A stretch of 64,000 nt of DNA. Source: Flavobacteriia bacterium. Its GTDB lineage: Bacteria; Bacteroidota; Bacteroidia; Flavobacteriales_D; Crocinitomicaceae. The notes below the pieces were generated by a model that saw only the letters and a list, made by a program, of their open reading frames with translations, made no database searches and was not told where the DNA came from. Shown in pieces: positions 48,916-58,077 of the stretch (its first letter is position 1; each line of letters begins with the position of its first letter). Both the position numbers and the translations under genes were made by a program. Location: assembly GCA_947450325.1 (NCBI GenBank), contig CANFUT010000007.1, positions 62,001 to 126,000 on the forward strand. Direction: 5' to 3'.

Positions 48916-49353
48916 ATGAAACGGATTTTTCTTTTTATTACATGTCTTTTCTTGGTGTTGAATTTGAACGCCCAAGAAGCAATTCAATGGGAGTTTAATT
49001 ACAACGAGAAGACAAATCAAGTTGAAATTGTTGCAAACATTAAGGATGGTTGGCATTTGTATAGTCAGCACATTAAGAATGATGTCGGACCAATTCCAAC
49101 CTCCATTACTTTCAAATCTTCAGATGATTTTCAATTAATTGGTGCAGTTGCAGAACCAAAAGCCATTCAAAAATACGATGAGAATTTTGAAGCAACATTA
49201 GACTTTTTTGAGCACAAAGTAGTTTTTACTCAAAAAGTAAAAGCAAAAAAAGCGAGCGTTCTTGAAGGTTCAGTTACTTTCATGGTTTGCAACGAAACTA
49301 TGTGTTTACCTCCGGTAGACAAACAATTTAAAATCACAATACCGAAAAATTAA
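48916..49353 (+). CDS. Stand-alone DsbD N-terminal-domain (alpha) protein, periplasmic
   Basis: 145 residues with signal peptide (MKRIFLFITCLFLVLNLNAQ) and one immunoglobulin-like DsbD-alpha domain. The redox cysteines are in MVCNETMCLPP near the C-terminus, matching the C-x(n)-C PP loop of DsbD-alpha. Such domains accept electrons from the DsbD membrane part and pass them to periplasmic thiol proteins. The next gene, 17 bases downstream, is a full DsbD with its own alpha domain, so this looks like an extra redox partner. The pair should act in cytochrome c maturation or disulfide reduction. Confidence 0.85.
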   Translation: MKRIFLFITCLFLVLNLNAQEAIQWEFNYNEKTNQVEIVANIKDGWHLYSQHIKNDVGPIPTSITFKSSDDFQLIGAVAEPKAIQKYDENFEATLDFFEHKVVFTQKVKAKKASVLEGSVTFMVCNETMCLPPVDKQFKITIPKN

Positions 49354-49370
49354 CAAACATTTATAGCATT

Positions 49371-51452
49371 ATGCATTTCAAATTACGACCAATTTTAATG
49401 CTTTTCTTAAGCATCTTTTTCCTAAGCAATCTTGCATTCGCACAGCCAAGTTGGAAAGACAAAATGACTTTAGATTATTCGGTAGCCAAAGATGGAGACT
49501 GTAAGGCAGTCATCAAATTTAAAGCGAAACTTGTACCTGGATTTCACATTTTCTCAATCTCTCACGATCCAGAAAAAGCTGATTTTACAGGAACACCAAC
49601 AACCATTGAAGTAGAAGCATCCAAAAATTACAAACTTCTTGGTAAACTTGCTGAATCAAAAAAGCCTACTGTTCACAAAGATGAATTTGGTACTTCTTTG
49701 TATTTCGAAAATACAGTTGAATTTTTGCAAAAAGTGGAAGTGTTGACCGACAAATCATTCGTGATGGATGTGCGTTTAACGGGTCAAATTTGTGATGAAA
49801 TGGGTTGTGTTTTTGTAAATAAGGATTTCAAAGTTGAATTCAAAAATTACAAGCCTTGTTCGATAACAGAAGTTCCAGAAGAGAATACAAATCAAGCTGT
49901 TTCAAATTTAGATACCAACACAAACGCTGTAAAAGAAAACAACGACAACGTCAACAAAAAATCTACTGCCGATGAAATTAAAGAAGCTACTCCAAGCAAA
50001 AAGAAAGCTGATTCATTCTGGATTACTTTCTTGAAAGGTTTTGGTGGTGGATTAATCGCCTTGTTGACACCTTGTGTTTTTCCAATGATTCCAATGACTG
50101 TGACGTTTTTTACGAAACAATCTGGTTCTCGCAGAAAAGGAATAATGAACGTTTTGCTTTATGGTGTTTCAATCATTCTGATTTATGTAACAATCGGATT
50201 GGTCATCACAGCCATCATGGGACCTTCAGGATTGAATGATTTATCAACGAATGTTTGGATGAATTTACTGTTCTTCTCCATTTTCATGATTTTTGCCTTT
50301 TCATTTTTGGGTGCATTTGAAATCAGAATGCCTAGTAAATGGGTGAACAAAGCCGATGGTAACGCTGATAAAGGTGGTTTAATCGGGATTTTCTTCATGG
50401 CTTTTACTTTGAGTTTGGTCTCGTTTTCGTGTACAGGACCAATTATCGGAACTTTGTTGGTTGAATCTTCTACAAGTGGAAGCATGATGGGACCAGCAAT
50501 TGGGATGATTGGTTTTTCTTCAGCACTTGCCATTCCATTTACTTTGTTTGCAATTTTCCCAGGATGGTTGAATTCATTGCCTCAATCTGGAGGTTGGTTA
50601 AACTCTGTGAAAGTAGTTTTAGGATTATTGGAATTGGCCCTTGCTTTGAAATTCTTGTCCGGAATCGATTTGGCTTATCATTGGGGAGTTTTGACAAGAG
50701 AAATCTTCATCGCTATTTGGATTGTAATTTTCTTTGTCATTGGTTTCTATTTGCTCGGTAAACTCAAATTTTCGCACGATTCTAATGTCGAAAGATTAAC
50801 TGTGACTCGATTCATGTTTGCGCTATTAGCATTGGTTTTTGCTGTATACTTAGTTCCAGGGATGTGGGGCGCACCTTTGAAGTTAATTGATGGTGTAGCA
50901 CCTCCAAGATCTCATTCAGAGGACAATTTCCGTTTTGTTCGAGGCGAATCGAATGGGGGAGGAACTGCTGTTGCTAATCCAATTTTCCAAGAATACAGAA
51001 AAGACATGCACGAAATCGATGGAGATTTATTGGTTTTCCATGATTTAGACAAAGCGCAAGAATACGCTAAAAAGGTAAATAAACCTGTTTTGTTAGATTT
51101 TACAGGATACAATTGTCCTAATTGTCGCAGAACTGAATCAACTGTCTGGACGGACACCAAAATCAGTTCAATTTTGAAAAATGAGGTCGTGATTGCTTCT
51201 TTGTATGTAGATGACAAAGCGAAATTGCCAAAATCTGAATGGAAATTTTCCAAAGTGTTGGATAGTGAAATTCGCACCGTTGGAAATAAATGGGGCGATT
51301 ACCAAATTCGCAAATACAACCAATTGTCTCAACCATTGTATGTCTTGACTGATCCAGAAGGAAATGATTTGACCAAACCAATGGGGTATGAATCAAACAT
51401 TGATGTTTACAAATCTTTCTTGGAAAAAGGGTTGAAGAAATATAAGAAATAG
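49371..51452 (+). CDS. dsbD: Thiol:disulfide interchange protein DsbD
   Basis: 693 residues with all three DsbD modules. After the signal peptide (to ~residue 25) the alpha domain carries its cysteine pair in GQICDEMGCVF (~140-150). A low-complexity Asn/Lys linker (~170-215) leads to the eight-span membrane domain with TPCVFPMIP and SFSCTGPIIG, the two membrane redox cysteines. The C-terminal thioredoxin domain has the active site GYNCPNCRRTE (CPNC). It shuttles electrons from cytoplasmic thioredoxin to periplasmic proteins. It is co-transcribed with the preceding alpha-domain protein. Confidence 0.94.
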   Translation: MHFKLRPILMLFLSIFFLSNLAFAQPSWKDKMTLDYSVAKDGDCKAVIKFKAKLVPGFHIFSISHDPEKADFTGTPTTIEVEASKNYKLLGKLAESKKPTVHKDEFGTSLYFENTVEFLQKVEVLTDKSFVMDVRLTGQICDEMGCVFVNKDFKVEFKNYKPCSITEVPEENTNQAVSNLDTNTNAVKENNDNVNKKSTADEIKEATPSKKKADSFWITFLKGFGGGLIALLTPCVFPMIPMTVTFFTKQSGSRRKGIMNVLLYGVSIILIYVTIGLVITAIMGPSGLNDLSTNVWMNLLFFSIFMIFAFSFLGAFEIRMPSKWVNKADGNADKGGLIGIFFMAFTLSLVSFSCTGPIIGTLLVESSTSGSMMGPAIGMIGFSSALAIPFTLFAIFPGWLNSLPQSGGWLNSVKVVLGLLELALALKFLSGIDLAYHWGVLTREIFIAIWIVIFFVIGFYLLGKLKFSHDSNVERLTVTRFMFALLALVFAVYLVPGMWGAPLKLIDGVAPPRSHSEDNFRFVRGESNGGGTAVANPIFQEYRKDMHEIDGDLLVFHDLDKAQEYAKKVNKPVLLDFTGYNCPNCRRTESTVWTDTKISSILKNEVVIASLYVDDKAKLPKSEWKFSKVLDSEIRTVGNKWGDYQIRKYNQLSQPLYVLTDPEGNDLTKPMGYESNIDVYKSFLEKGLKKYKK

Positions 51453-52985: not shown

Positions 52986-53405
52986 TTAGATAATTTCGTT
53001 TGCAGAGAAATGAAATTTACCTTCGATTTCAGCATTTTCGTCTGAGTCAGAACCGTGAACAGCGTTACGACCTTTTGATTCAGCGTAATATTTACGGATT
53101 GTACCTTCAGCAGCTTCAGCTGGATCTGTAGCACCGATTAACGCACGGAAATCAGCTACTGCGTTTTCTTTTTCCAAGATTGCAGCTACGATTGGTCCAG
53201 AAGTCATGTATTCAACTAATTCACCATAAAATGGTCTTTCAGCATGAACTTCGTAAAATTTTTGCGCTTGTTCTGTTGTCAATTGTGTCAATTTCATCGC
53301 TTTGATTTCAAAACCAGCTGCGATAATCATGTCGATAATTTTTCCTGTGTGCTTGTTTTCAAGTGCATCAGGCTTTAACATTGTAAATGTTCTATTTGTT
53401 GCCAT
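52986..53405 (-). CDS. ndk: Nucleoside diphosphate kinase
   Basis: 139-residue enzyme that equilibrates NTPs and dNTPs by a phosphohistidine intermediate. The active-site histidine lies in [15 protein letters not shown], the universal NDK motif. The N-terminal [11 protein letters not shown] carries the Lys-Pro-Asp element. Length fits bacterial NDK. A TATCTTTG box lies 22 bases upstream of the ATG. It is monocistronic with its own terminator. Confidence 0.97.
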
Positions 53406-53427
53406 TTTCTTTTTTCTAAATTGGGTG

Positions 53428-53435
53428 CAAAGATA
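53428..53435 (-). promoter_or_regulatory. -7 box of ndk
   Basis: On the minus strand TATCTTTG (53428-53435) followed by CACCC, 22 bases before the ndk ATG. The -33 element is not convincing. Confidence 0.6.
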
Positions 53436-53496
53436 CGTTTTTTAGACCGAAGTCGGAAACGATTGGGTAAAAGACTTGTTAATTTTGTGGAAAAAA

Positions 53497-53668
53497 GATG
53501 TTAGGATGTTAAGATATTAGGATATTAAGACGATTTACTTTGTAAGTCTAATAATCCAACAATCTAATAATCCAATACCGACAAAGTCAGCCACGAAGTG
53601 AATCCAACACCGCCGCAGGCAGACGCGCAGCGAATCCAATAATCTAACAATCTAATAATCTAAATCAT
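53497..53668. repeat. Intergenic repeat array with an imperfect palindrome and a GC-rich block
   Basis: Variants of AATCTAATAATCCAA recur at least four times (53546-53575 and 53632-53665). The left block (53497-53530, TTAGGATGTTAAGATATTAGG) is roughly the reverse complement of 53546-53575, so RNA from here could fold. Between them sits an unusually GC-rich segment (53595-53636, CGCCGCAGGCAGACGCGCAG) flanked by two GAATCCAA copies. No open frame covers it. It lies between the end of the copper operon and ndk. Confidence 0.55.
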
Positions 53669-54069
53669 TTCCGTTCATACTGGCAGCACGCATGCAATTT
53701 CTTGTACGCTTTGTCGTCGCCTTTGTATTTCACGTTGTCGTATCCAGCCAAGGCGATGTTTTTTTGAATTTGGTCTAAATTGATTTTGTTGGCGTCGAAT
53801 TTCACGTTAATCAACTTTTTGTCCACGTCCCAATTCGCGCTTTCAACTCCCTCGACTTTCAGCGATTTTTCGATGGTTTCTTTGCACATTTCGCAATTTC
53901 CCCAAACGGTAAAAGTTGTTTCACCTTTGCCGTCAACGATTGTCGTTTTAGTAAATTCGTTGATTGTTTTGCTAACAGTTTCTGTGTTTTCACTACCGCA
54001 TGAAGCGAAGAAAACAATTGAAACTATAATAAGTAAAAAGTTTACAATTGATCTAATATTTTTTTTCAT
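53665..54069 (-). CDS. Heavy-metal-associated (HMA) domain lipoprotein
   Basis: 134 residues. The signal sequence ends in the lipobox FASC, giving a lipid-anchored cysteine at C24. The mature protein carries one ferredoxin-like HMA domain with the metal motif GNCEMC (C59 and C62) and the typical NWDVDKKLINVKFD strand. The C-terminus adds HACCQYER, an extra cysteine pair that could also bind metal. Its likely role is periplasmic binding or delivery of copper. It is the last gene of a four-gene minus-strand operon, 10 bases after the multicopper oxidase. Confidence 0.88.
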   Translation of the reverse strand: MKKNIRSIVNFLLIIVSIVFFASCGSENTETVSKTINEFTKTTIVDGKGETTFTVWGNCEMCKETIEKSLKVEGVESANWDVDKKLINVKFDANKINLDQIQKNIALAGYDNVKYKGDDKAYKKLHACCQYERK

Positions 54070-54079
54070 TTTAAACAGT

Positions 54080-55792
54080 TTATTTTTTAATAAATTTCTG
54101 GTGAAAATACTGATTTTCTCTTAAAATTGAAATCATGTAAATCCCATTTTCAAATTGACTAATATCTATACTTTCTTCGTCTTTAGATGAGGTTGTTTGA
54201 AAACAAATTTTTCCGACATTGTCAAATATCACAATTTCAGAAGTTGATTTTCCTAGAGGCATATTGACTTTAAGAATAGAGTTTGATGGATTTGGATAAA
54301 CGTTTAATATTTGATTGTTTGGTTCTATTTCTGAATTCCCAGCAAAACTTTCTGTTACCACAAATTGTCCCATCATTCCAGCATCTTCATGCATCAGAAT
54401 ATGACAATGAAACATATATGGAACCATCGAATCCGCAAAATCTTCGAATTTAGTTATGAATTTCAAAGAATCTCCTGGTGGAACTAAAATCACGTCTTTT
54501 CTGCCACTTTCTGATGGAGTAGGCATCACAGTTTCATTTCTATTCAGCAAAAAGAATTGAACATCATGAATGTGAAACGGATGTGCAACCATGGTTTCGT
54601 TCACCAATTTCCAAATTTCAACATTGTTTAATGGAATGTTATAATCTATTCGCATCATGTTGAATAAACTGTCATTGAAGTAAAATGGACCGTCCATCAC
54701 CATCATGCTATCCGCTGTGAATCGGATTGTACGAGTGACATTGGCATCGGAAGCTAGAAAAGGAATGTTATTTTCCAAGGTACTTGGAATACTTGTTACG
54801 GGATTTATTGTTGGAGCAACAACATTAATTTGCAAAATATTAAAGTCAATCCCGTTCAAAGGACTGTCCATCGGCGGTCCATTTGGCATCGGCATGGTTG
54901 GTCCTCCTTGGATTCCCATGGCTAATTCGGAAGCGTAACTCATTAGTTGCAAGGTTTGTCCGTTCAAAGTGCTCAAATTAACCAATATCTCTGCGCGTTC
55001 TCCGGGAGAAAGTAAAATACGCGTGGTATGAAAGGCTTCATTTAGCAATCCTCCGTCGGAACCAATTTGGTGAAATGGAAAATCATTCGTAAATCCAAAT
55101 AAAAACGAGCGTTCTCCGGAAGCATTCAATAATCGCATTCTAACAATTTGTGCTGGAAAATCGCCATATACCGAATATCCATTGTTTGCTCTTGCTCCAT
55201 TTACCAGGATGGTACTATCCTGCATTCCCAATGGCATTGCTTGATTCAAAGAATCGTATTGTTGGCATTGAATGATAATTGGAAAATCATCAACTCCATA
55301 TCGTCTAGGTAGATTTAGTGACCTTTCAGTAGAATCTCGAACAATGATTAATCCTGCGGCGCCTTTGATTGCTTGTTTGGCTGTTTTCATGTGCCAATGC
55401 GGATGATACCAATAAGTTGAAGCATGATCCATAACTTTAAACGTTGGATGCCAAATTTCACCAGCTAAAATTGGTGTGTGTGGTCCGCCATCCCACATTG
55501 CTGGAACATGCAAGCCATGCCAATGAACTGTAGTTGTATCATCGATGGAATTTGTTACATCAAAATTTGCTACTTGTCCTTTGTTTAAAATAATTGTCGG
55601 ACCTAAATAAGCAAATTGATTGTACCCGAATGTTTTGGATTTCGGACCAGAAGGAAACAGTTGTACACTGTCATTGTGCATATTCAGCGCAATATTTGTT
55701 CCCGAAAGTGTATCTGGAATCACTATAGGCGTTTGACCTAAAGTGATTCCTGAATACAATAAAATAAAAACGAACCAAGTGGAATTTTTCAT
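54080..55792 (-). CDS. Multicopper oxidase (CueO/laccase-like) with T9SS type A sorting domain
   Basis: 570 residues. After a signal peptide (MKNSTWFVFILLYSGITLGQ) come three cupredoxin domains with all copper ligands: HWH (90-92), HPHWH (130-134), HPFHIH (404-409) and HCHILMHEDAGM. In the last, H462, C463 and H464 and then H468 and M473 build the type 1 and type 3 sites. Methionine-rich stretches (~285-310, MPMPNGPPMDSP) may bind Cu(I). The last ~80 residues are a T9SS sorting domain (VYPNPSNSILKV ... GIYMISI), so the enzyme should be on the surface or secreted. It probably oxidises Cu(I) or phenolic substrates. Confidence 0.93.
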   Translation of the reverse strand: MKNSTWFVFILLYSGITLGQTPIVIPDTLSGTNIALNMHNDSVQLFPSGPKSKTFGYNQFAYLGPTIILNKGQVANFDVTNSIDDTTTVHWHGLHVPAMWDGGPHTPILAGEIWHPTFKVMDHASTYWYHPHWHMKTAKQAIKGAAGLIIVRDSTERSLNLPRRYGVDDFPIIIQCQQYDSLNQAMPLGMQDSTILVNGARANNGYSVYGDFPAQIVRMRLLNASGERSFLFGFTNDFPFHQIGSDGGLLNEAFHTTRILLSPGERAEILVNLSTLNGQTLQLMSYASELAMGIQGGPTMPMPNGPPMDSPLNGIDFNILQINVVAPTINPVTSIPSTLENNIPFLASDANVTRTIRFTADSMMVMDGPFYFNDSLFNMMRIDYNIPLNNVEIWKLVNETMVAHPFHIHDVQFFLLNRNETVMPTPSESGRKDVILVPPGDSLKFITKFEDFADSMVPYMFHCHILMHEDAGMMGQFVVTESFAGNSEIEPNNQILNVYPNPSNSILKVNMPLGKSTSEIVIFDNVGKICFQTTSSKDEESIDISQFENGIYMISILRENQYFHQKFIKK

Positions 55793-55810
55793 CTGACAGA
55801 AAACAATTAC

Positions 55811-56701
55811 TTATTCTACAATGAATTTTTCAGTTCTTAATTCGCCATTAGCTTGGATTTTCAAGAAATAGATTCCTTTTGAATAGCTGGAAATGTTAAA
55901 TTCAAAATTGTTTTTCCCGTTGGCAATTATTTTGTTTTCATTTGAATAAATTTTTCCATCAAGTCCAACGATTGAAATTGTAATGTCTTGATTTTTAGCT
56001 GACGAAATTTCAAGATTGAATACGTTTTGAACTGGATTTGGAGTAATCAAAGTGGAATTGATGACAGCAATATTTTCCTGGATTCCAGCAACAGAGCCAG
56101 AAAAAGCCAAATTATCTAACCACAAATAGTCATTATTTGCAGGTGTCGAGCCACTTGCTTGCATAAAAATGATACAACTGTCAGGAGTTTCTGAACTAGT
56201 GTAAGTAAATGGAATTGTAAATGACGCCCAATTCATTTGCATGCCGTTCAATGCTTTGTAGGCAGTTGCAATAATGTCGCGTTGATTGGTGATGTTATTC
56301 CATTTTGTTAATTTGACATCAACTGATCCTTGTGATGTGCCATAAATCATGTGTTGCCATTTTCCCGTGAAATTTTGAGGTTGTCCTGTAAATGCAAAGC
56401 CAGATTTTGGTGCCATAGTCATTGAATCTAAAATTCCACAAACAGCAATTCCATTTATCACAGATGGTCCAACAGTTTGAGACGTTAGTTTCAAATAGGA
56501 GGATCCGGTCGCTCCCGGAGTACCAGCGGTTGCAGTAAAAACAGCTCCAACTGCAGTTGTATTATTCATCGTACCCCAATTGTCAGGTGTAGAATATGTT
56601 CCGTGTGAAGTCCAATTTTCAAAATCAAAATTTGGAATTTGAGCGACTGCAGAAAAGCTTAATGCGTTAACAGCTAATAATATAATGAATATTTTTTTCA
56701 T
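55811..56701 (-). CDS. T9SS-exported jelly-roll protein of unknown function in the copper operon
   Basis: 296 residues from ATG 56701, which gives the signal peptide MKKIFIILLAVNALSFSAVAQ; an in-frame start at 56755 is less likely. The mature protein begins IPNFDFENWTSHGTYSTPDN, the usual opening of carbohydrate-binding-like (PCMD-type) jelly-roll domains of Bacteroidota. It runs to LWLDNLAFSG (~residue 215). A T9SS type A domain follows (TPNPVQNVFNLEI ... GIYFLKI). It is 18 bases upstream of the multicopper oxidase in the same operon. Its job, for example an anchor or scaffold for the oxidase, is only a guess. Confidence 0.78.
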   Translation of the reverse strand: MKKIFIILLAVNALSFSAVAQIPNFDFENWTSHGTYSTPDNWGTMNNTTAVGAVFTATAGTPGATGSSYLKLTSQTVGPSVINGIAVCGILDSMTMAPKSGFAFTGQPQNFTGKWQHMIYGTSQGSVDVKLTKWNNITNQRDIIATAYKALNGMQMNWASFTIPFTYTSSETPDSCIIFMQASGSTPANNDYLWLDNLAFSGSVAGIQENIAVINSTLITPNPVQNVFNLEISSAKNQDITISIVGLDGKIYSNENKIIANGKNNFEFNISSYSKGIYFLKIQANGELRTEKFIVE

Positions 56702-56769
56702 CTTTAATAATTTTAAATTTATAAATACAAGTTTAGTTGACATATTGATAGTCAAGAAATGTATCTAAA

Positions 56770-57177
56770 TCAAATTATTAAAGCTCTGTTTTTGAGGAAA
56801 ATTGCTGTTTTTTGTTGAGGAGGAGGATGCTGAAAGTTTAAAGGTACTCTAGCGGTTATATTTCTAGTAAATTGTTGTTCAAAATTGACTATCACATTCG
56901 TGACTATTGCAAATTGATTGGTGGAATTTACTTTTATTTCAAAATTTGAAGAATGATTGTCTTTGATTTTGAAAACAACTAATTTATTGTGGCAACAGCG
57001 ATTAGATTCTATTTTACTTCCACAGCAAGATTTTTCATCATTCTTGAAAAGTGAAATTTTTTGCACTGTTTTACCACAATAATGGATGTTAATTGATGTA
57101 CCTGTTGAAACTAACAGATAAAACACACACAAAAATATGGTCAAAAATGATTTCACATTTAATAAAATTCTAGACAA
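56770..57177 (-). CDS. HYC_CC_PP family small exported protein (copper-operon associated)
   Basis: 135 residues with one N-terminal hydrophobic segment (residues 8-28) serving as signal or anchor. The motifs that name the family appear in order: HYCGKTVQKISLF, the cysteine pairs KSCCGSK and NRCCHNK, and a late HPPPQQ. Members often neighbour heavy-metal-binding and TonB genes, which suggests a role in copper handling; the function is not established. It is the first gene of the four-gene operon that includes the T9SS oxidase and an HMA lipoprotein. Confidence 0.85.
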   Translation of the reverse strand: MSRILLNVKSFLTIFLCVFYLLVSTGTSINIHYCGKTVQKISLFKNDEKSCCGSKIESNRCCHNKLVVFKIKDNHSSNFEIKVNSTNQFAIVTNVIVNFEQQFTRNITARVPLNFQHPPPQQKTAIFLKNRALII

Positions 57178-57244
57178 ATGTACAACAATCCCAAGTAGAA
57201 AATATGATTAAAAGTTTAGGTTCTATTGAAATGCTATTTAAATT

Positions 57245-57679
57245 TTAAATAATGACTTTGATTTTTTCAGCAACAATTTTATCCACTGGAAAAGTCATTT
57301 CTTCGGATGAAATATTTTTCAATGCAATCCAACGAGGCATTTCTCCATCTTGGTTTAAAATTTGTTTTTCGCTATTCGCTGTAATGTTTTGCCAATTTTG
57401 AGCACTTACCCAAAAATAGAAAATCAACAATTGGTGATTTTGATTAAAAGCGGATTCTTGGTAAAAATCGTTGACAAAAAATAATTCTCCAACTTCAATT
57501 TCAAGCGATAATTCCTCTAAAAATTCGCGTTTCAAACCGTCTGTAAGTCCTTCACCGAATTCCAAACCGCCACCAGGAAATTTGGTAAATGCGTGATTGA
57601 ATCTAAATTCATCTGTGATTAAAACTTCTTCGCGGTCGTTTTTCAACAGACCATAAACCCGCACATTGAAACTTTTCAT
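57245..57679 (-). CDS. NUDIX hydrolase
   Basis: 144 residues with an intact Nudix box, G-x5-E-x7-REFLEEL-S (in GGGLEFGEGL...REFLEELSLE, ~residues 36-58). The enzyme hydrolyses a nucleoside diphosphate linked to another group; the substrate cannot be read from sequence. It starts 5 bases after the stop of the MazG-like gene upstream, so they form a two-gene unit of nucleotide-cleaning enzymes. Confidence 0.88.
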   Translation of the reverse strand: MKSFNVRVYGLLKNDREEVLITDEFRFNHAFTKFPGGGLEFGEGLTDGLKREFLEELSLEIEVGELFFVNDFYQESAFNQNHQLLIFYFWVSAQNWQNITANSEKQILNQDGEMPRWIALKNISSEEMTFPVDKIVAEKIKVII

Positions 57680-57684
57680 TTCAA

Positions 57685-58077
57685 TTATTTCTCCAAAATG
57701 GATTTGATGTCTGGTCTGAAATACAGTTCTGATTTCAATACTTTTCCATCTTCGCGGTAAATTGGTTTTCCATTTGCATCTAATTTACTCATGTTTGAGC
57801 GTTGAATTTCTTGAAAAACTTCCACAATTTTGTCTTGCAAACCATGACGTAAAATCGTTCCACACAAAATATACAATTGATCACCCAAAGCATCCGCTAC
57901 TTCCACCAAATCGCCATTTTTAGCAGCTTCAAGGTATTCTTCGTTTTCCTCTTTCATCAAGTTGAAACGCAATTCTACTTCAGCTTCCGTAAGGTTAACT
58001 GTTGGCTCGTAATGATTTTTGATTCCAAATGCGTCATGAAATTGTTCGACGTGTCCGATGGTTTCTTGAATTTTCAT
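57685..58077 (-). CDS. MazG-like/HisE-like pyrophosphohydrolase family protein
   Basis: 130 residues of the all-alpha NTP pyrophosphohydrolase superfamily. The metal-binding ExxE...ExxD acids appear in EENEEYLEA (~residue 42) and EVADALGDQLYIL (~60-72). The C-terminal part (RSNMSKLDANGKPIYREDGK) is found in a distinct subgroup of phosphoribosyl-ATP-diphosphatase-like proteins from Bacteroidota and phages. It pairs with a downstream NUDIX gene 5 bases away. The substrate is unknown. Confidence 0.85.
   Translation of the reverse strand: MKIQETIGHVEQFHDAFGIKNHYEPTVNLTEAEVELRFNLMKEENEEYLEAAKNGDLVEVADALGDQLYILCGTILRHGLQDKIVEVFQEIQRSNMSKLDANGKPIYREDGKVLKSELYFRPDIKSILEK

Follow-up and report, generated by a model that had tools for sequence, protein, structure and literature searches.

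A cutFOG-like gene row in a Crocinitomicaceae genome combines a putative copper-sensing leader with two proteins tagged for type IX secretion

The multicopper oxidases CueO of Escherichia coli and CutO of Rhodobacter capsulatus act in the periplasm. In R. capsulatus, cutFOG encodes an exported small Cys/Pro-rich leader, a multicopper oxidase, and a copper chaperone, and both CutO and CutG are exported to the periplasm by Tat (PMC9973294). In Bordetella pertussis, the leader reading frame CruR, in which the CXXC and RAPP motifs lie 45 residues apart, heads the gene of a TonB receptor in CruR-bfrG (PMC9426467). The CutF/CruR plan consists of a Cys motif, a Pro motif near the C-terminus, a 45-residue spacing between them, and a position before multicopper oxidase, TonB, or RND genes (PMC9973294, PMC9426467). 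Here, we describe four genes with the same order of roles as cutFOG in a 64,000-nucleotide stretch (the window) of contig CANFUT010000007.1 from a Flavobacteriia bacterium of the Crocinitomicaceae. Judging from their sequences, the four genes probably serve to sense copper and to place a copper-oxidizing enzyme, together with a copper-binding partner, outside the cell.

The row comprises a protein of the HYC_CC_PP family (HYC; NCBIfam NF047658, 54.4 bits against a cut-off of 28), a jelly-roll protein (JR), a multicopper oxidase (MCO), and a lipoprotein with an HMA domain (HMA; 41.1 bits, cut-off 24.8), which carries an apparent lipobox, FFASC, read by eye, and the metal motif CEMC. JR and MCO each possess a sorting domain of type A for the type IX secretion system (T9SS), scoring 51.0 and 50.5 bits, respectively, against a cut-off of 27 (Pfam and NCBIfam), with that of MCO at residues 498-570. 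A first-pass annotation of the window had proposed a copper operon with gaps of 68, 18, and 10 bases between HYC and JR, JR and MCO, and MCO and HMA. The open reading frame coordinates, all on the minus strand, agree with this layout, and all four family assignments hold, with profile scores above the cut-offs and, for JR, the fold of a structural model. Its idea of copper handling in two compartments would also fit the predicted export signals. Since the genome encodes SprA and GldK (the two components of the machinery that were searched for, both above cut-off), export of the operon proteins by the T9SS is plausible. In contrast to cutFOG, the MCO described here combines a Sec-type signal with a T9SS tail, an HMA lipoprotein takes the place of the chaperone, JR comes as an extra member, and no relation of HYC to DUF2946 can be detected. 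The row is read most economically as a cutFOG-type operon, and we lean, if only slightly, toward this reading as a whole, namely a cutFOG-like copper-detoxification operon whose oxidase would be routed to the surface by the T9SS and which adds a predicted surface Cu(I)-binding protein.

The four genes form a real unit, because their order is conserved across genera and families and because the block is missing whole in a sister species. A JR search of genome contigs returned 30 loci, 27 of them close relatives (44-55% identity), and a JR profile searched at class level (E 1e-25) matched 99 of 395 genomes. Among the 51 JR proteins with scores of 250 bits or more, an MCO is found within 1.5 kb on the same strand in 33, an HYC neighbor in 26, an HMA within 4.5 kb in 22, and at least one of the three in 40. 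The full order of HYC, JR, MCO, and HMA is found at 14 loci, the window included; four of the 14 have a second JR, and one (L064) has a beta-propeller protein before HMA. The expectation of the same gene order in other Flavobacteriales was also borne out with MCO as the sole query. At E 1e-180, 399 genomes of the order yielded, besides the window, four close orthologues (three from the same family and one from another), and HYC and then JR lie directly upstream of MCO in all four, with HYC identified also by profile at L009 and L088. HMA stands behind MCO in three of them (L009, L010, and L088), and at L011/L041 a T9SS protein and an HMBD-type protein are found there instead. The proposed copper role is backed by the neighbors at related loci, which include HMA, HMBD, CusB-type, and RND genes, TonB receptors, AraC regulators, and long MCO-like proteins.

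In the sister species G015 (locus L216), whose ndk is 98.6% identical and whose aligned flanks share 89-95% DNA identity with the window, the segment between ndk and the Nudix gene is absent, and about 30 bases of the 3′ end of HMA (53665-53695) are retained. This reads as a joint loss of the four genes. A recent insertion into the window genome was considered and rejected, as the HMA stub points to loss in G015 and the GC content of the operon (0.30-0.40 in 1-kb windows) resembles that of the flanks (0.31-0.41). An MCO of the same clade was not found in the four other genomes of the genus, one of which is 73% complete. An accidental juxtaposition of the four genes would fit the motif scans, which gave no convincing promoter or terminator; the conserved order and the block absence contradict it, and we regard it as hardly credible.

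MCO contains the domains Cu-oxidase_3 and Cu-oxidase_2, and its best PDB sequence matches are CueO-type oxidases. In the alignment with CueO, 12 of 12 type 1, 2, and 3 copper ligands are retained (10 His, 1 Cys, and 1 Met), and MCO shares with CueO Met-containing segments near the type-1 site. Unlike CueO, MCO is without the long Met-rich insert and has a T9SS tail, and its 307.5 bits fall below the cut-off of 525 for the NCBIfam CueO equivalog. To define the JR-linked form, 20 JR-linked MCOs were compared with 32 others (30 of 39 sister-type matches plus L076 and L083, two MCO loci from the JR search where JR lies further off). Met occupies 9 of the 45 positions diagnostic of the JR-linked MCOs versus none of the 15 diagnostic of the others (rough binomial P 0.0005), and mean Met content over about 463 residues is 24.3 versus 17.4. 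Methionines near the type-1 site are specific to the JR-linked clade and missing from sister T9SS MCOs; M364, M366, D367, and M401 lie around the region of the Cu(I) site of CueO. The twelve CueO ligands and these clade-specific methionines suggest that the JR-linked MCO is a cuprous oxidase. Sister MCOs have T9SS-type tails in the alignment, and their neighbors are either T9SS redoxin and HYC genes or a T9SS-tagged MbnP with a MauG-type peroxidase. At L048 (7054-9148) and L049 (8763-10858), a sister-type T9SS MCO adjoins a T9SS-tagged MbnP and a MauG/CCP-type di-haem peroxidase, apparently another surface-directed copper set.

The AlphaFold model of JR (mean pLDDT 78.4, pTM 0.56) falls into two parts. 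Residues 18-205 match 3hbz (Z 17.5, root-mean-square deviation 3.1, 184 aligned residues), and residues 215-296 match the T9SS C-terminal domain of mirolase, 8qb1 (Z 12.0, root-mean-square deviation 1.5, 77 aligned residues). The top folds for the N-domain, the PCMD proteins 3hbz, 4jrl, 3s30, and 4het, score Z 16.9-17.5, and the next row scores 12.0. A plain Foldseek search with JR gave whole-length matches at low TM-scores only, and a PDB sequence search with the JR profile gave matches in the C-terminal third alone, mostly T9SS sorting domains. By its model, then, JR is a PCMD-like jelly roll followed by a T9SS type A sorting domain. It differs from PCMD proteins in its T9SS tail, in a Met motif, and in its sequence, as the PCMD profile PF13201 does not match the window protein at E up to 0.1 and matched 3 of 30 JR proteins, with a best E of 0.001.

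The Met motif was traced in a pooled JR family of 145 distinct proteins; 109 of them were aligned across the motif columns and the other 36 left out. Q116, M118, and M154 are invariant in all 41 JR proteins with an MCO, HYC, or HMA neighbor, and residue 156 is M in 33 of these, H in 7, and I in 1, the last being a protein cut at a contig end. In 57 low-scoring family members without such neighbors (checked within 1.5-3 kb on each side for most), M118 occurs in 1, M154 in 0, and M156 in 4. The sole low-scoring member beside an MCO, L170, carries M118, M154, and H156. This conservation points to the JR methionines as a predicted Cu(I) site. CusF has a different fold and a Met/His/Trp residue set like the one conserved along the JR sequence. 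In second JR paralogues located between MCO and HMA (L060, 10611-11486; L063, 10615-11487; L067, 4761-5711; L138, 8716-9591), Y117 and H156 replace H117 and M156, as if one Met ligand had been swapped for His.

These features also bear on the possibility that MCO is a surface laccase that oxidizes organic or other substrates outside the cell, with JR as a carbohydrate-binding PCMD anchor and HYC and HMA supplying cofactor copper only. Profile matches of MCO do include laccases and phenol oxidases, and the JR N-domain, with its modeled PCMD fold, is also similar to carbohydrate-binding modules, CBM16 among them. However, JR proteins in copper loci carry the Met residues that distant family members are without, the MCO clade has gained Met near the type-1 site, and metal genes are neighbors at many related loci. 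We consider such a laccase improbable.

The leader gene was compared with CutF and CruR through 75 distinct HYC proteins, a non-random sample from loci chosen for JR, MCO, or HYC. PP lies within the last 30 residues in 71 of the 75; 14-17 residues follow it in 61 of the 71, and the last residue is Ile in 62 of the 75. In 69 of 71, the last CC and PP are 50-57 residues apart (median 54, interquartile range 53-56), yet the spacer itself has a mean identity of 15% over 403 equal-length pairs. The HxC-to-CC distance ranges from 27 to 57, except for one value of 1. The signal peptide of HYC was judged by eye. Of 247 genomes sampled from the class, 158 carry the family. HYC was callable at 29 of 30 class-level loci, always with a co-directional gene within 400 bases, and the following genes scanned (10 of 29) encode three RND proteins, four TonB receptors, one HMBD protein, one HMA protein, and one T9SS protein. 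HYC shares with CruR a leader reading frame, a Cys motif, a C-terminal PP at conserved spacing, and a place before a metal gene, but it has HxC and CC motifs, a 54-residue spacing, and PP usually 15-16 residues before the stop (PMC9426467). The CutF survey counts CutF-like proteins in Bacteroidota and admits Pro motifs in the last 15 residues, which leaves the PP of most HYC proteins just outside, and neither HYC nor T9SS is mentioned in its main text (PMC9973294). HYC proteins may or may not be among those Bacteroidota proteins. HYC looks like a nascent-chain copper sensor of the CutF/CruR type: it stands in leader position, has a Cys cluster and a Pro-Pro close to the C-terminus, and keeps its spacer at a near-fixed length without conserved sequence. 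This resemblance and the methionine signatures of JR and MCO go beyond the first-pass annotation. A second HYC gene in the window genome (L212, 3220-6317, contig C11) precedes a TonB-dependent receptor and an HMA protein, and is probably the leader of another copper or metal operon of this kind.

In the proposed mechanism, the Cys cluster of HYC would meet copper during export, at a time when the ribosome still encloses the conserved C-terminal tail, and the contact would set the expression of the downstream genes. JR and MCO, which carry the corresponding signals, would cross the inner membrane through Sec and the outer membrane through the T9SS. At the surface, MCO would act as a CueO-type cuprous oxidase converting Cu(I) to Cu(II), and JR could bind Cu(I) via M118, M154, and M/H156, perhaps also H117 and W158, and either hold the copper there or hand it to MCO. 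The HMA lipoprotein would bind periplasmic copper and may load MCO before it crosses the outer membrane.

Several observations weigh against this interpretation. Within JR, H117 is kept in 28 of the 41 proteins and replaced in 13 (by Y in 11 and by F in 2). No HYC, MCO, or HMA neighbor was detected for 11 of the 51 high-scoring JR proteins; at L162 the MCO is cut by the contig end, L159 and L161 have T9SS redoxin and HMBD or CusB-type genes as neighbors, L077 has a TonB receptor, and several others adjoin unrelated genes such as YchF or PTPS. For MCO, the residues of the CueO Cu(I) site do not correspond one-to-one with the MCO methionines in the alignment. Ancestry explains part of the Met pattern because the JR-linked MCOs form one clade, and JR is also found with sister-type MCOs lacking the methionines (L076 and L083) and with a further sister-type MCO at L170. 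The co-directional Nudix gene just upstream of HYC means that the promoter may lie elsewhere than assumed.

The remaining points concern the leader. A search of 22 HYC proteins for DUF2946 (E up to 1, within the filters of HMMER) detected it in none. HYC-JR gaps are only marginally more folded than controls (mean z -1.95, n=21, versus -1.52, n=91; Mann-Whitney P 0.047); of 23 such gaps, 21 entered the comparison, without L064 and L176. In 8 HYC-JR gaps, whose hairpin arms are shifted in the MAFFT alignment, RNAalifold gave 0 pairs, and a conserved stem-loop was dropped as a candidate. A CCCG..CGGG-type hairpin with some paired changes can be seen by eye in seven relatives, and support for a stem-loop is weak overall. 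Both the unmatched DUF2946 and the want of a clearly significant stem-loop would suit a different role for HYC, that of a mature, Cys-rich copper-binding protein of the periplasm, with MCO, JR, and HMA functioning as proposed above. The AlphaFold model of HYC, a hairpin and helix of modest confidence (pLDDT 70, pTM 0.35), fits this role as well, in that the constant length of the spacer could also come from a folded domain. Set against it are the near-constant spacer of little identity, the conserved last residues, the constant distance from PP to the stop, and the leader position before unrelated metal genes. A mature HYC protein is thus the less likely case, though one to be taken seriously.

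A broader proposal, to which we would give somewhat less than an even chance, holds both that HYC_CC_PP is a Bacteroidota family that senses metal as nascent chains, has no detectable relation to DUF2946, and controls RND pumps, TonB receptors, and surface oxidases, and that JR is a new T9SS-delivered Cu(I)-binding jelly roll with a methionine site, the partner of a surface cuprous oxidase, so that copper would be sensed in the course of export and its detoxification would take place beyond the outer membrane. If so, a T9SS-placed cuprous oxidase with a Cu(I)-binding partner would be an added compartment in Bacteroidota copper defence, and co-translational sensing would explain why HYC precedes otherwise unrelated metal genes; such sensing is now directly testable in a family of this breadth. 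In keeping with the first-pass annotation, which knew of no description of the operon, none was found in the openly licensed PMC literature, outside which most subscription journals lie. The same literature yielded no paper on HYC_CC_PP and none that joins multicopper oxidase, T9SS, and copper. Multicopper oxidase and type IX secretion are mentioned separately in the accessible text of one genome comparison, and that of a Bizionia copper paper calls its MCO periplasmic and does not mention the T9SS.

Table 1. Coordinates of the operon, its motifs, and adjoining features in the window.
Feature	Position	Strand	Remarks
HYC_CC_PP (gene 1)	57177-56770	minus	TTG start
JR (gene 2), T9SS jelly-roll protein	56701-55811	minus	ATG start
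MCO (gene 3), T9SS multicopper oxidase	55792-54080	minus	
HMA (gene 4), HMA-domain lipoprotein	54069-53665	minus	
HYC motifs	56770..57177 (gene)	minus	HYC residues 32-34; CC 51-52 and 61-62; PP 118-119; end ...RALII
JR residues 113-121, GKWQHMIYG	56339..56365	minus	Q116, H117, M118
JR residues 151-158, LNGMQMNW	56228..56251	minus	M154, M156, W158
MCO residues 364-367	54692..54703	minus	M364, M366, D367; diagnostic of JR-linked clade
MCO M401	54590..54592	minus	diagnostic; three residues before copper ligand H404
HYC-JR intergenic region	56702..56769	minus	68 bases; hairpin possible, unexceptional (z -1.3)
Segment absent at same site in G015 (L216)	53696-57256		
Nudix gene	57245-57679	same direction as operon	upstream, 67 bases from HYC TTG

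For HYC, an in-frame GTG at 57156 is an alternative start, and the open reading frame tool extends the JR start to a TTG at 56755. The gene preceding the Nudix gene is also co-directional with the operon, as is ndk, 259 bases behind HMA. A Bacteroidota-type promoter motif had zero matches on the coding strand, a sigma-70 scan gave 24 sites versus 18.7 expected, and Rfam gave zero matches over 53000-58000 at E up to 1. AraC-type regulators with an HMA-like N-terminus, judged by eye, lie behind the operon in some relatives (L062, 4353-4916; L073, 10978-11541) and could serve as transcriptional partners that sense metal. Next to HYC, JR, or MCO genes, small redoxin-like proteins with T9SS tags turn up repeatedly (L201, 588-1367; L050, 7443-8231; L159, 7517-8293). 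Behind HMA, an AT-rich 23-base intergenic repeat occurs at 53550-53572 and 53638-53660 of the window, and matches the whole genome 11 times at up to 2 mismatches, compared with 2 matches of the reversed control. At 48916-51452, a few kb away from the copper genes, a separate DsbD N-terminal-domain protein is encoded directly before a DsbD-type membrane protein.

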